Assembly: GCA_009787345.1 (NCBI GenBank)
Contig: WRGF01000210.1
Location: 1-39,618, forward strand
From: Turicibacter sp.
GTDB taxonomy: Bacteria > Bacillota_I > Bacilli_A > MOL361 > Turicibacteraceae
DNA: 39,618 nt
Direction: 5' to 3'
The translations under genes and the position numbers were made by a program. Position 1 is the stretch's first letter. Every line of letters begins with the position of its first letter. This document shows, in pieces, positions 5,284-25,952 of the stretch. The notes beneath the pieces were generated by a model that saw only the letters and a program-made list of their open reading frames with translations, did no database searches and was not told where the DNA came from.

Positions 5284-6383
5284 CGATGCTCATTGACTGG
5301 GTGACGGCGACTTTCCATCATGTGACGGTGGATGAGGTGAAGTTGCTTTTGAACCTGGAGGAACAGCTTTGGGAGGAAGGCGGTAGGTTTCGCCAACATG
5401 GTTATCTTACTTCGGAGTCCATTGGTGGGATTACCCTATCCTCGGGTTCCGATCATGAGGGCATGAAGCATACGGTGAACGTCGTAGTTTCAGGAAATGG
5501 GTGCCGATTTTTGGAGGAGCATATTAAAAGTTGGCCTGAACTTTTCCAAAGTTTTTATTTAAGCTGTGAGGAACATTCGAGGAAGCTAAATTTTACCCGC
5601 ATTGACCTGGCTATTGACGATCGGCGGGAAGCGGATGAACTGACCATGGCCATTGATTGGCTCCATGATAAAATCGTGAGTGGCGAATGCAAGACGCGGA
5701 TCAAGAATGTGGCCTTTAAGAATGGTAGGAAAATCAGGCAACCTGGCGAGGAAGAGGAAAAGAATGAAGAACTATTAACCCTTGGGAGCCGAAGCAGTGA
5801 AACCTATATCCGTATTTATAACAAGCGATTGGAACAGCTGTCAAAGCTTAGGCAGGCACCAAAAGATAAGCAGGAAGAAATGCGTCGCTTGATCCCAGAC
5901 CGTTGGGACCGTTTGGAGATTGAAATCAAAGGGGATAAGGCCAATCAAGTCGGGCGGATGGTTGCCGATGATTTGGATATGTCCCATCTGGCCCTTGGGA
6001 TTTTAAACAACAACTTGGAATTGGTGGATAGGACTTACCTGAAAAATGGGGCTTTGAAGAAAAAGCGGTCTTGGGTGACCAATCCGAAATGGAAGGCTTT
6101 CATCGGTGAGGTGGAGAAAATAAAGCTGGTGACGGAGCCTAAGAACCTGAATCTGGAACAAAAAATCCTGTACATTGAAAAGGCCCATGGGAAAACCCTG
6201 GCGATGATCGACAGGGCTGAAAAAGGGCTGACCGTCCTGAAAAAAGATGATTCCAATCAGTTGATTGGCATGTCGCGTCCTAAAATACTGGATACCATCA
6301 TCCGTGAAAGCAAGGACAAGTTGGACACTAAGGATTATCATCTGGTAGCAGAATATGTGGCCCATCATCAAAAAGTAGAATAG
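5274..6383 (+). CDS. rep: Rolling-circle replication initiator, Rep_trans family
   Basis: A 369-aa protein of the replication initiation factor family (plasmid pT181 RepC, Tn916 Orf20 and several Gram-positive filamentous phages). Visible motifs are DWVTATF at the N-terminus, FTRIDLAIDD near 107-116 (acidic metal-binding strand), SETYIRIYNKRLEQ near 175-188 (strand with the nicking Tyr and YNK) and RLEIEIKG near 213-220. These proteins nick one strand at the double-strand origin and stay bound to the 5' end through tyrosine, which for a filamentous phage would start viral-strand synthesis. The start is either ATG 5274 or ATG 5286; the second begins MLIDWVTA, closer to family starts. It overlaps the preceding ORF and ends at a hairpin shared with the convergent regulator gene. 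Confidence 0.92.
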   Translation: MGLTMLIDWVTATFHHVTVDEVKLLLNLEEQLWEEGGRFRQHGYLTSESIGGITLSSGSDHEGMKHTVNVVVSGNGCRFLEEHIKSWPELFQSFYLSCEEHSRKLNFTRIDLAIDDRREADELTMAIDWLHDKIVSGECKTRIKNVAFKNGRKIRQPGEEEEKNEELLTLGSRSSETYIRIYNKRLEQLSKLRQAPKDKQEEMRRLIPDRWDRLEIEIKGDKANQVGRMVADDLDMSHLALGILNNNLELVDRTYLKNGALKKKRSWVTNPKWKAFIGEVEKIKLVTEPKNLNLEQKILYIEKAHGKTLAMIDRAEKGLTVLKKDDSNQLIGMSRPKILDTIIRESKDKLDTKDYHLVAEYVAHHQKVE

Positions 6384-19902: not shown

Positions 19903-20958
19903 TTAAAACAAGTGGTGGGTCGAGTGTTCCAATTGTTTTTCCAAATCGTTCATCCGTTTCGTCAAATCATTGATTTGGCGCTGCATTTCTACCAGTTCCC
20001 CGTCGCTGGATACATGGGGTGCCGTCGTGGGTGCAGGGCGGCTTTTTGGGGCATGATAGTTAATTTTCGGTGCTGGCTTTTTAGGTACCCCATGTGCCGG
20101 CTGGGCCTCGGGGACCAACTCCTCTGTCCGTGGTTGGGGAGTGGGCAAGGGATGCATTTGTTGGACAGGCGGTGTGGGTGCCATTGGTTGGCTAGGCGCT
20201 GGCGCAGCAGGACGGTCAATTGGTTGCGGGGCTGCGGGGGGGTTAATGGTCAACTGCCCGGTTTGGGGGTTGATGGAAATTTGGGGCTGGTTGAAGGCGG
20301 GGCCCTGGTTAATGGGCATCTGGGGATGCATCGGTTGAAGGTTTTGTTGGGGCACTTGCATCTGGTTATTCATTTGAGCCGGCATGGGCGCCATGTTTTG
20401 TTGCATCGCAGCAGGCATGGGTGTGGGCATGGCCTGCGGCATCGGCTGTGGCATGAGCTGTTGCGGCATCGGTGAAGGCATCATCTGCTGCATCCCTTGT
20501 GGCATCCCCTGAGGGGGCATAGCTTGTTGCATGTTTGGCATTTGCCCCGGCATCTGTGGCATGGGTTGCATCTGGTTGGGGAGTGGTTGCATGGGCATGC
20601 CCTGCCCTGGCATCATCTGCGGGTACATCTGTCCCATTCCCTGCCCTGGCATCATCTGCTGCGCCATGGGGTTCATCATCATTTGCCCGGGGGGCATCTG
20701 ATAAGGGTTGTACATCGCTGGCTGCGGCATGTTTTGGTTTTTAGCCATATTATTTAGTCCTCCCATCTGTGTCATTCCCGAAAAATCTTGGTTTCCAGCG
20801 GGGCGGTCCATCACTGGATAAGGATAGCCCGGCGGGCTGCCTGGCAGTGCTTGCGGTTTCGAGTTTTGGTTTGCCATGAACTGGTTCATGTAAAATTGTT
20901 CCATTTGGTCAATTTTGGGAGGGGGCGTGGATTTTTTGAAGAAATCAAACACTGACAT
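19903..20958 (-). CDS. Met/Pro/Gln-rich low-complexity protein with C-terminal coiled coil, 351 aa
   Basis: AAAGGAGG lies 10 bases before ATG 20958. The N-terminus is a short conserved-looking helix (SVFDFFKKSTPP, then MEQFYMNQFM). The middle (about 75-300) is dominated by Met, Pro and Gln in loose MPQ/MPG units without cysteines. The end is a coiled coil with heptads (MQRQINDLTKRMNDLEKQLEH). No membrane segment or signal peptide is seen. The composition resembles spore-coat or surface scaffold proteins, and a spore gene is nearby. That is only a suggestion; I do not recognise the family. Long open frames on the opposite strand come from the low-complexity codons. Confidence 0.75.
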   Translation of the reverse strand: MSVFDFFKKSTPPPKIDQMEQFYMNQFMANQNSKPQALPGSPPGYPYPVMDRPAGNQDFSGMTQMGGLNNMAKNQNMPQPAMYNPYQMPPGQMMMNPMAQQMMPGQGMGQMYPQMMPGQGMPMQPLPNQMQPMPQMPGQMPNMQQAMPPQGMPQGMQQMMPSPMPQQLMPQPMPQAMPTPMPAAMQQNMAPMPAQMNNQMQVPQQNLQPMHPQMPINQGPAFNQPQISINPQTGQLTINPPAAPQPIDRPAAPAPSQPMAPTPPVQQMHPLPTPQPRTEELVPEAQPAHGVPKKPAPKINYHAPKSRPAPTTAPHVSSDGELVEMQRQINDLTKRMNDLEKQLEHSTHHLF

Positions 20959-21104
20959 AGGCTTAAACCTCCTTTCGGGAACTTTATTCGAGGGTATGCC
21001 TGATGTATGTTCAGCCATGCCCTGGGCTAATATATACTATGATTATGGGCGGGATTGTGCTATTATAATTTATAGCTATTACACTATATGCGAGGATTGA
21101 TACT

Positions 21105-22869: not shown

Positions 22870-22976
22870 GTCGAAATGCGGGAAGTAAGCCCCAACACCT
22901 TGAGAAACCCCCTCCCCTTCGTGTATAATAAGGCAAAGGGCAATCCATTGCCATGAAAGTCGTAAGGTGTGAGAAA

Positions 22977-24635
22977 ATGAAAAAAATTTTTGATATTGAA
23001 AAAGTCGGCTTTGGTGACGAAATGGGCGAACCAGTAACCACCAACCGCCTGACCAACCACGATATATTGCCCCAGGCCAAAAGGCAGTCTTGGGAATCTG
23101 CTAAAACCGAAGCAAGCCATAAGAAGGTGGCTGATGGGGCCAACCTGAAATCCTGGCATTCAAAAACCATGGAAACAGCCCCAGTCCCCGAAAACAAAGT
23201 GCCCGCTTTTAAACCGGCCGCATCCCCTAACCAGAGGGCGGCATCGGTGGAAAACAGCTTCGTGCCAAGGCCAGCCATCAAGGAACCTTCCGAAAAAGCA
23301 GTGCCAAAAGCAGTTGCCACGGGAAAAAAAGAACCTTCGCCGTTCAAAGCGGTCGAATTTATCTCCCCCATCAGCGGAAGCCGCCAAAAAAAACCTGAGA
23401 AACTCCATTTGGCACATGGGCAGTATTTGGTAGGCCGCCGGGAACTCATTGCCCGGGAAACGAAAGCCGCCCCAGCAGCAGACGAAGCGTTTGTTGAGGA
23501 AGTAGTCAACCTTGCAAAAACCCCAGTCGAAGTTTCCAGCTATTACGAATTGCCGCCCCTTCAATTATTGCCGGAAGAAAGCAGTTTAAGGAAAACGCTG
23601 GCAAGCCCAGATGCCATGCTTGTAAACCACCCCTTGATGCTTGCCCTGGGAACCGATTCAAAGGGGAGCGGGGTCATTGGGAACCTAGGAAGGCTTGGCC
23701 ACCACTTAAATGACGGTGAGAAACCCGGGTTGTTGGATGCCCAGGTTTTAGGGATGCTCTTTAAGTCAGGCCCTGCGGATTTGCGTTTGGTGATGATGGA
23801 TAGCATGGAAAATCCGTTGACGGGTTACGAGGGGCTTCCCCATTTGGCACTGCCAATTTTAAGGGGAAAACCCCGGTTGAAAGCCGGTTTGGAATGGCTT
23901 ATAGATGAATGCCAGCGCCGCTTGCGGCTGCTCCAGTCTGAAAACGCAGCCCATATCGAGGCTTTTAACGAGCTAAGGCCAACGTTTGACCAAGAATATG
24001 ACCGCCTGCCTTATTTGGTGGTTGTGTCCAACGACTGGGAACAAGCCAAAGGGCTGCCGCAAGTCGCAGGCTTGCTTTTAGACGGCCCAAAAGCCGGCAT
24101 CCATTTCCTTGCGTCATCCCATCAACAAACTGCTGGTTTCGGCTCCCTTTCTAGGACAGGCTATTGGCAGTTTGAAGGGGAAGCCATCACGTTAGAGAAT
24201 GCCGTTGCCACTTCCGATGATGTAGAAAAGGTCATGGAACACATTAAAAAGCAGCTGGAGTTGGTTTACCTGCTGGATGCATTAGCCATCGAATCCCTTC
24301 CCTTGACCGAGGAGGATGAGATAGACCCAGGCCTTGAAGGGATCCAAATCCCAAAAATCCCCCCAAGGCAGCCAGAAGCGACGGTTGCCGAATCAAAGCC
24401 AGTGGCAGAGGTTAGGGAAGTTTCCCAAGAAAGCCTCTTCGAGTCCATGGAGCTGTTTTTGGATAAAAACCATGTCAGCTATAGCCTGCTGCAAACCAAA
24501 CTGGGCTTTAGTTATGCCCAAGCGGTGCGGGTCGTCGGGGAGCTTTACAAACGGGGATGGGTTGGGCAGTCCCCTAAGACCCCTTATTGGGAATTGAACC
24601 TGTCCCAAAGCGAATACCTGGAAATAACGGCTTAG
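22977..24635 (+). CDS. FtsK/SftA-like protein with degenerate ATPase motifs, 552 aa
   Basis: The C-terminal 60 residues match the FtsK gamma winged helix that reads KOPS/SRS DNA (ESMELFLDKNHVSYSLLQTKLGFSYAQAVRVV). The central part follows the FtsK motor layout: LRLVMMDS at the strand after Walker A, GLPHLALPI, LEWLIDECQRRLRLL and LPYLVVVSNDW in the Walker B place, then AGIHFLASSHQ. But the P-loop is replaced by GTDSKGSGV without GK(S/T), and Walker B lacks the Asp-Glu pair. The first ~185 residues are a disordered Lys/Pro/Ala-rich linker with no membrane span. It sits directly before murC, where Bacillus has sftA (952 aa). I infer a shortened paralogue that binds DNA but does not hydrolyse ATP. 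Confidence 0.8.
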   Translation: MKKIFDIEKVGFGDEMGEPVTTNRLTNHDILPQAKRQSWESAKTEASHKKVADGANLKSWHSKTMETAPVPENKVPAFKPAASPNQRAASVENSFVPRPAIKEPSEKAVPKAVATGKKEPSPFKAVEFISPISGSRQKKPEKLHLAHGQYLVGRRELIARETKAAPAADEAFVEEVVNLAKTPVEVSSYYELPPLQLLPEESSLRKTLASPDAMLVNHPLMLALGTDSKGSGVIGNLGRLGHHLNDGEKPGLLDAQVLGMLFKSGPADLRLVMMDSMENPLTGYEGLPHLALPILRGKPRLKAGLEWLIDECQRRLRLLQSENAAHIEAFNELRPTFDQEYDRLPYLVVVSNDWEQAKGLPQVAGLLLDGPKAGIHFLASSHQQTAGFGSLSRTGYWQFEGEAITLENAVATSDDVEKVMEHIKKQLELVYLLDALAIESLPLTEEDEIDPGLEGIQIPKIPPRQPEATVAESKPVAEVREVSQESLFESMELFLDKNHVSYSLLQTKLGFSYAQAVRVVGELYKRGWVGQSPKTPYWELNLSQSEYLEITA

Positions 24636-24653: not shown

Positions 24654-25952
24654 ATGAAAGACAAATTTCATCTAATTGGGATCAAAGGGTCGGGCATGAG
24701 CGCCCTGGCCCACATCCTTCACGATATGGGCCATGAGGTACAGGGCTCGGACTTGCCAGAGCGCATGTTCACCCAAATCGGCTTGGAAGCCAAGGGCATG
24801 GCCCTTTATCCCTTTGGGCAGTCAAAAATTGAGCCCGACATGAAAGTCATCATTGGCAACGCCTTTAAGGACGACCATGAAGAAGTGTTGCAGGCAAAAA
24901 ACGCAGGTGCCAAAACCATCCGTTACCATCAATTTTTAGGCGAGCTTATTGAAGGGGCAACTTCCATCGCTGTGTCAGGGACCCATGGCAAGACGACCAC
25001 CACCGGTTTGTTGTCCCATGTCCTGCGCCTGAACCACCCCACATCCTTTTTAATCGGGGATGGGACTGGAAAAGGGGTCAAGGACGGGAAATATTTCTCC
25101 TTTGAAGCCTGTGAATACAAACGGCATTTTCTCGCTTATCACCCGGATTATGCGATTATCACCAACATCGAGCATGACCATCCGGATTATTTTGCAGATT
25201 TGGATGACGTCTTGTCAGCATTTGATGCCTTCGCAGCTCAAACCAAAAAACAAGTCGTCGCCTGTGGGGACGACCCGGCGGTCCTGGCCTTAAAGGACCT
25301 GTCGAAAGTCATGACCTATGGGTTTGGGGATGGCAACCGGGTAGTGGCTAAAAACATCCTGAAAAATTCCAAGGGCACTGCTTTTGATGTTTGGATCGAT
25401 GCTAAATTCTATCATACCTTTGAAACGCCATTTTTTGGGGATCACATGGTACTCAATAGTTTGGCGGTCATCGCTGTTTGCTTCCTTGAAGGGATGGAAT
25501 CGTCCGTGGTGGAAAAAGACCTGGCTTTATTTGCCGGGGTCAAGCGCCGCTTTGCGGAAAAGAAATACCTCCATCAGGTCATTATCGATGATTACGCCCA
25601 TCACCCAACGGAAATAGCGGTGACGTTAAAGGCGGTCCGCCAAAAGTACCCGGATAAAGAGCTGGTCGCAGTATTCCAGCCCCATACCTTTACCCGGACC
25701 AAGACTTTCATTGACGAATTCAGTGAAAGCCTGAACCTGGCAGACCATGTCTACCTGACCGATATTTTTGGTTCGGCACGGGAAACGGGCGGTGAAGTCA
25801 GTATTGATTCCCTCATCGAAAAATGCCGCAATGGGGTATTGGTCACCGAGGAAAACATCGGCATGCTTTCCAAGCACACCGAAGGGGTACTGGTGTTCAT
25901 GGGTGCCGGGGATATCAAAAAATATGAGGAAGCCTATTACCGGCAAGCATAG
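24654..25952 (+). CDS. murC: UDP-N-acetylmuramate-L-alanine ligase
   Basis: 432 aa, normal for MurC, which adds L-alanine to UDP-MurNAc in the first peptide step of peptidoglycan synthesis. The N-terminal nucleotide-binding motif is HLIGIKGSGMSALA. The ATP loop is GTHGKTTTT, and the central NIEHDHPD plus DDYAHHPTEI mark the Mur ligase centre. GGGAGGAG precedes ATG 24654, 18 bases after the FtsK-like gene, so the two form an operon, probably with ytxH. Confidence 0.95.
   Translation: MKDKFHLIGIKGSGMSALAHILHDMGHEVQGSDLPERMFTQIGLEAKGMALYPFGQSKIEPDMKVIIGNAFKDDHEEVLQAKNAGAKTIRYHQFLGELIEGATSIAVSGTHGKTTTTGLLSHVLRLNHPTSFLIGDGTGKGVKDGKYFSFEACEYKRHFLAYHPDYAIITNIEHDHPDYFADLDDVLSAFDAFAAQTKKQVVACGDDPAVLALKDLSKVMTYGFGDGNRVVAKNILKNSKGTAFDVWIDAKFYHTFETPFFGDHMVLNSLAVIAVCFLEGMESSVVEKDLALFAGVKRRFAEKKYLHQVIIDDYAHHPTEIAVTLKAVRQKYPDKELVAVFQPHTFTRTKTFIDEFSESLNLADHVYLTDIFGSARETGGEVSIDSLIEKCRNGVLVTEENIGMLSKHTEGVLVFMGAGDIKKYEEAYYRQA

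Follow-up and report, generated by a model that had tools for sequence, protein, structure and literature searches.

What does a gene of the FtsK family of DNA translocases encode once its motor has been dismantled, and does selection still hold on to it? This question is raised by a gene in the window, the whole stretch of 39,618 nucleotides analysed here (contig WRGF01000210.1 of the Turicibacter sp. assembly GCA_009787345.1), which comes from a 3.1-Mb draft genome in 221 contigs that is 99.7% complete. The original prediction described an FtsK/SftA-like protein that stands in the sftA place before murC and has lost its Walker motifs. Two features define the locus:

22977..24635, plus strand: degenerate sftA gene, 552 aa (PF01580 and FtsK_gamma matches; synteny and alignment with Turicibacteraceae SftA).
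24654..25952, plus strand: murC, the neighbour that fixes synteny (three Mur ligase domains; 72-75% identity to Turicibacter MurC).

The order trmB-thioredoxin-sftA-murC-ytxH recurs with the same neighbours in five Turicibacter genomes, in which a complete soluble SftA is encoded between thioredoxin and murC (open frames 800-965 aa long, containing GQTGSGKS and IDELADL); the window gene is therefore sftA, as had been proposed. Its start codon is the ATG at 22977, since Turicibacter orthologues begin with MKKRxIFDIEK at the equivalent position and the AAGGTG at 22964-22969 fits; an upstream ATG at 22953 was rejected on the same grounds. Orthology was argued from synteny and N-terminal motifs and not from a tree: the window protein does fall beside the Turicibacteraceae SftAs, but its branch, about 10 changes per site long, joins another long one (that of genome G006, described below), and the tree was thus not used to prove its position. 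The family comparison covered seven genomes from two other genera and one genome of the window genus; no same-genus relatives were found, a contig scan with the N-terminal alignment matched only Turicibacter sp. UBA7094, and no relatives turned up among the viral contigs searched. This sequence evidence identifies the 552-aa protein as the SftA, in syntenic position, of a genus of Turicibacteraceae.

Family membership was also clear from profile and similarity searches. FtsK_SpoIIIE (PF01580) matched with an E value of 2.4e-11 and 43.9 bits, against a curated cut-off of 24 bits, and the alignment was limited to profile positions 58-165 of 221, starting just past the Walker A part. In phmmer comparisons with structures of FtsK from E. 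coli and P. aeruginosa (E about 1e-13), a four-residue gap fell exactly at the P-loop. The EssC family model scored 12.9 bits, for a single domain, below its cut-off of 778. Five features record what has happened to the motor:

23571..23585, plus strand: alpha-domain deletion junction, residues 199-203, between LL198 and L204 (alignment A1).
23586..24140, plus strand: remnant of the beta (RecA-like) motor core, residues 204-388 (AlphaFold pLDDT mostly 73-91; Foldseek).
23700..23729, plus strand: destroyed Walker A site, HHLNDGE----KPG, residues 242-251 (family alignment; alignment to 2iut).
24009..24041, plus strand: destroyed Walker B, PYLVVVSNDWE vs PYILIVIDELA (family alignment).
24294..24425, plus strand: low-complexity linker that joins motor remnant and gamma domain, enlarged by an insertion of 34 aa (alignment; pLDDT 32-40).

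The losses were inventoried in alignment A1, which sets the window protein against seven family SftAs (8 members in all). The whole alpha domain, about 99 aa, is gone in a single break, LLKEP...[alpha]...LKEIL having become LL-PEESS-LRKTL. Relative to intact orthologues, the P-loop GQTGSGKSV reads GE----KPG, four residues short and without GK(S/T), and the Walker B VIDELAD reads VSNDWEQ, with Asp-Glu lost, exactly as the Walker motifs had first been read; a pattern search for the canonical P-loop G-x4-GK[ST] found none anywhere in the window protein. The observed loss is confirmed, and neither a P-loop elsewhere nor a lack of FtsK similarity speaks against it. The distal motor shows further deletions of 6, 24 and 11 aa and its later strands are gone. 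Intact Walker A and B and a present alpha domain, taken here as the marks of an active translocase, are thus absent, and, judged from its sequence, the window SftA is almost certainly incapable of translocation and would be expected to lack ATPase activity in vitro. The pattern is hardly explained by an error of assembly or sequencing in which fragments of an intact sftA were fused: the genome is indeed a draft in 221 contigs, but Walker A and B are altered by many scattered substitutions and not by gaps alone, the frame is open throughout, and no intact sftA lies elsewhere in a genome that is 99.7% complete, so we give this explanation almost no weight.

Motor-domain landmarks, which had been described as kept, survive in part, as a core with the FtsK motor fold from which the distal RecA half has been deleted together with the alpha domain. 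In an AlphaFold model built from the 8-sequence alignment, with an overall pTM of only 0.48, residues 190-388 form a confident core (block means mostly 73-91) and the gamma domain is confident too. The best Foldseek matches of the whole model were FtsK motor domains (6t8b/2ius; E 2e-16 to 1e-15, TM about 0.5 of target), and the predicted core still matches this fold. The window protein therefore shares the motor fold of its remnant and its gamma fold with the FtsK/SpoIIIE membrane translocases (the FtsK of the same genome, E. coli 2ius and P. aeruginosa 6t8b) and is unlike them in having no membrane helices, no ATPase site and no alpha domain.

FtsK-type domains without catalysis are already known in type VII secretion (PMC11154593), where the degenerate ATPase domain of EccC5 (its DUF) is thought to act in pore opening and closing. 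The likeness lies in catalysis lost and a domain kept as a structural or regulatory module; unlike the window protein, EccC5 is a protein-secretion motor, with further active domains in its chain and no gamma domain, and is not a division protein. This precedent, together with the resemblance of the RecA-like remnant to an FtsK motor subunit, would favour the idea that the window protein serves as a regulatory subunit, an inactive partner in a hexameric ring of FtsK or another motor. We consider this very unlikely because deletion of the alpha domain and the distal motor strands makes a ring interface improbable and because work on B. subtilis reports no colocalisation of SftA with SpoIIIE (PMC5357621). 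A literature search found no example of a motor-dead SftA.

The C-terminal domain is the other part of the protein with a confident predicted fold:

24426..24632, plus strand: FtsK gamma winged-helix domain with an altered KOPS-reading helix (PF09397 E 5e-6; pLDDT about 80; Foldseek; residue alignment).

The match to FtsK_gamma scored 26.6 bits by hmmscan, below the curated cut-off of 30.6, and 30.3 bits in the genome search, passing the cut-off only when neighbours in frame were counted; the predicted fold matches 2ve8 with a TM of 0.77 of target. The DNA-reading gamma domain had been described as kept, and this stands for the fold but is weakened by changes among the residues that read DNA. 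KOPS recognition in E. coli and V. cholerae FtsK depends on N1296, R1300 and E1303, and a triple alanine allele abolishes it (PMC2533119); R1300, E1303 and E1306 have also been named for KOPS reading (PMC2680272). In E. coli numbering, the phmmer alignment gives N1296 as A, R1297 as Q, E1303 as G and E1306 as Y, with R1300 kept. Because two of the three KOPS-contact residues are changed, sequence-directed reading of the chromosome is doubtful; from its sequence, we consider sequence-specific reading by the window gamma domain unlikely, and weak DNA contact possible.

These substitutions bear on another interpretation, in which a non-translocating protein senses chromosome position by sequence-specific gamma binding and signals to the septum or to MurC. 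The kept gamma fold, the retained R1300 and the adjacency to murC, which the original prediction had taken as a functional hint, all fit such a nucleoid-reading regulator. Yet both N1296 and E1303 are lost, E1306 is a tyrosine, without a hexamer there is no assurance of several linked gamma domains at each site, and the adjacency is that of the ancestral sftA locus, found equally with intact SftA in Turicibacter, and so carries no special information; we therefore regard a regulator of this kind as quite improbable.

A further gamma domain was seen at L071:5574-6341 (plus strand; G000:C221), in a protein of 255 aa (266 aa from an upstream ATG at 5541) in which a domain resembling methylglyoxal synthase (PDB 6f2c, E 3e-16) is fused to an FtsK gamma domain (PF09397, E 9.7e-12). 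This makes a third gamma domain in the genome from which the window comes, and no such fusion was seen in the seven other family genomes. The methylglyoxal-synthase signature, which we take to be GGDxQ, reads PEPGRAQSE in this protein, and its enzyme part may be inactive.

At its other end, the window gene carries a set of retained features:

22900..22929, plus strand: sigma-A-type promoter of sftA, TTGAGA-18-TATAAT (11/12 consensus positions).
22964..22969, plus strand: Shine-Dalgarno sequence AAGGTG, 7 nt before the ATG (read directly; upstream region conserved in relatives).
22977..23021, plus strand: conserved N-terminal motif MKKIFDIEKVGFGDE, common to Turicibacter SftA (alignments).
23352..23426, plus strand: VEFISPISG...LAHGQY motif, residues 126-150, in the disordered N-terminus; proposed to be divisome-binding (family alignment).

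Promoter-like matches in the region numbered 2, against 0.1 in shuffles, and the elements TTG(A/T)GA and TTCnTGTATAAT align across all five genomes of Turicibacter. These five also share the N-terminal motif KKIFDIEKVGFGDE, with I4-K9 and G11-E15 invariant in alignment A2; KKIFDIEK is absent from the other sister genus, so the motif is not universal. In the second motif, EFISPISG...LAHGQY, residues F128, S130, P131, I132, G134, A146, G148 and Y150 are invariant in all eight family members. A short F[VI]SP[IVL]xG motif, for example of the F[VI]SPIFG type, was also observed in the N-terminus of 17 of the 23 other class-wide SftA-type homologues examined, a count that covers this class, to which every member of the phylum-wide sample belonged as well. 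A literature search found no paper that names the SPIxG-type motif or assigns it a function.

The N-terminus has no hydrophobic or transmembrane helix, and its pLDDT is about 30 over residues 1-140. The suggestion that a disordered linker had replaced an N-terminal membrane part does not hold: SftA never has such a part, and the N-terminus of intact orthologues is equally soluble and low in complexity and usually longer, so that the ancestral linker would, if anything, have been shortened here. Low-complexity sequence also makes up most of a 371-aa protein encoded at 19903-21018 of the window (minus strand), with Met/Pro/Gln-rich repeats and a coiled-coil-like segment at its end.

In B. subtilis, SftA (YtpS/YtpT), of which Turicibacter has an orthologue, is a soluble, septum-associated FtsK-like translocase that is recruited by FtsZ (PMC5357621), SepF and FtsA helping to bring it to the Z-ring; cells that have lost it are elongated, and division is blocked when it is overexpressed in an ezrA mutant (PMC11790237). 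The window protein resembles it in its locus before murC, in a soluble, low-complexity, motif-bearing N-terminus (by comparison with Turicibacter), and in its beta remnant and gamma domain, and differs in lacking the alpha domain, Walker A and B and the distal motor strands and in its altered KOPS-reading helix. A separate complete FtsK, for which the original prediction had advised a search, is present in the same genome (C144, 767 aa, with GATGSGKS and IIDELADL), as is SepF.

How unusual the loss is can be judged from relatives. Walker A is kept in all 82 class-wide homologues examined (78 recognised by pattern; the other four, which carry a GG variant, by eye). One further family member shows erosion of a different kind: in the SftA of G006, from sister genus g3 (L032:3765-5708, minus strand), Walker B reads ISELAD (Asp to Ser), ATQRPT has become ATAEPT and the gamma domain is absent, with 84 nt between the sftA stop and murC, whereas the alpha domain and the P-loop GQPGAGKS are retained. 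In its congener G007, SftA is intact over the part that the contig covers. Since different parts were lost in the window lineage and in G006, SftA erosion in this family probably happened more than once, each time beside an intact membrane FtsK.

Such erosion could mean that this family, having FtsK, no longer needs sftA and is losing it, and that the present frame is a functionless late stage of a dying gene. The complete FtsK in the same genome, the different losses of G006 and an identity of only about 25% between the window SftA and its relatives agree with this. Identity to Turicibacter is 69-75% for TrmB and MurC, 60-62% for FtsK and 44-56% for Trx and YtxH but only 24-28% for SftA; for comparison, identity between Turicibacter SftA and intact homologous motors from other families of the class is mostly 46-52%. 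However, all indels of the window sftA relative to family SftAs are net multiples of three, and in a neutral simulation 0.1 substitutions per site produced about five stops and left none of 400 simulated genes open, the frame never being left open at this level or above. A frame that stays open through in-frame indels at about 25% identity, where simulation closes it, argues that neutral decay is not the explanation. Codon choice is also above random (0.045 log-odds per codon vs -0.111 +/- 0.022 for random codons encoding the same protein), the base composition of the codon positions resembles that of a gene, and the sequence has kept its promoter, Shine-Dalgarno sequence and N-terminal motifs as well as a gamma domain that is predicted well. 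We therefore consider a dying gene unlikely; a pure pseudogene was likewise judged unlikely from the open-frame simulation. The most economical reading, with one genome of the genus compared, is that the protein is produced and under selection; constraint outside the motifs is weak, given the extremely long branch.

Taken with the losses described above, this leads us to favour, with some confidence, an SftA orthologue that lost its translocase machinery and that selection retains in a non-translocating, putatively septal form. Its disordered N-terminus would dock on the Z-ring (SepF/FtsA/FtsZ), with KKIFDIEKVGFGDE and EFISPISG..AHGQY as the short conserved motifs involved; what is left of the motor could be a small folded spacer or interaction module, the gamma winged helix might make at most a weak or altered contact with DNA or protein, and chromosome pumping would be left to the intact FtsK, so that docking and not pumping would be what selection maintains. 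We infer septal docking and a division-related role from the retained ancestral N-terminal motifs. Whether this is a natural separation-of-function protein of the FtsK family, an SftA that shed DNA translocation and survives as a septal adaptor, we regard as evenly balanced.

A natural motor-less SftA whose promoter, frame and N-terminal motifs are kept points to these motifs as the function of SftA besides DNA pumping, with KKIFDIEK... and EFISPISG...AHGQY as testable peptides. Outside type VII secretion, the protein offers a clear-cut example of a pseudotranslocase of the FtsK family, which can be compared with a partly eroded relative (G006) and with intact ones. If our reading is true, the divisome-facing motifs of SftA would carry a selectable function that is independent of DNA pumping.
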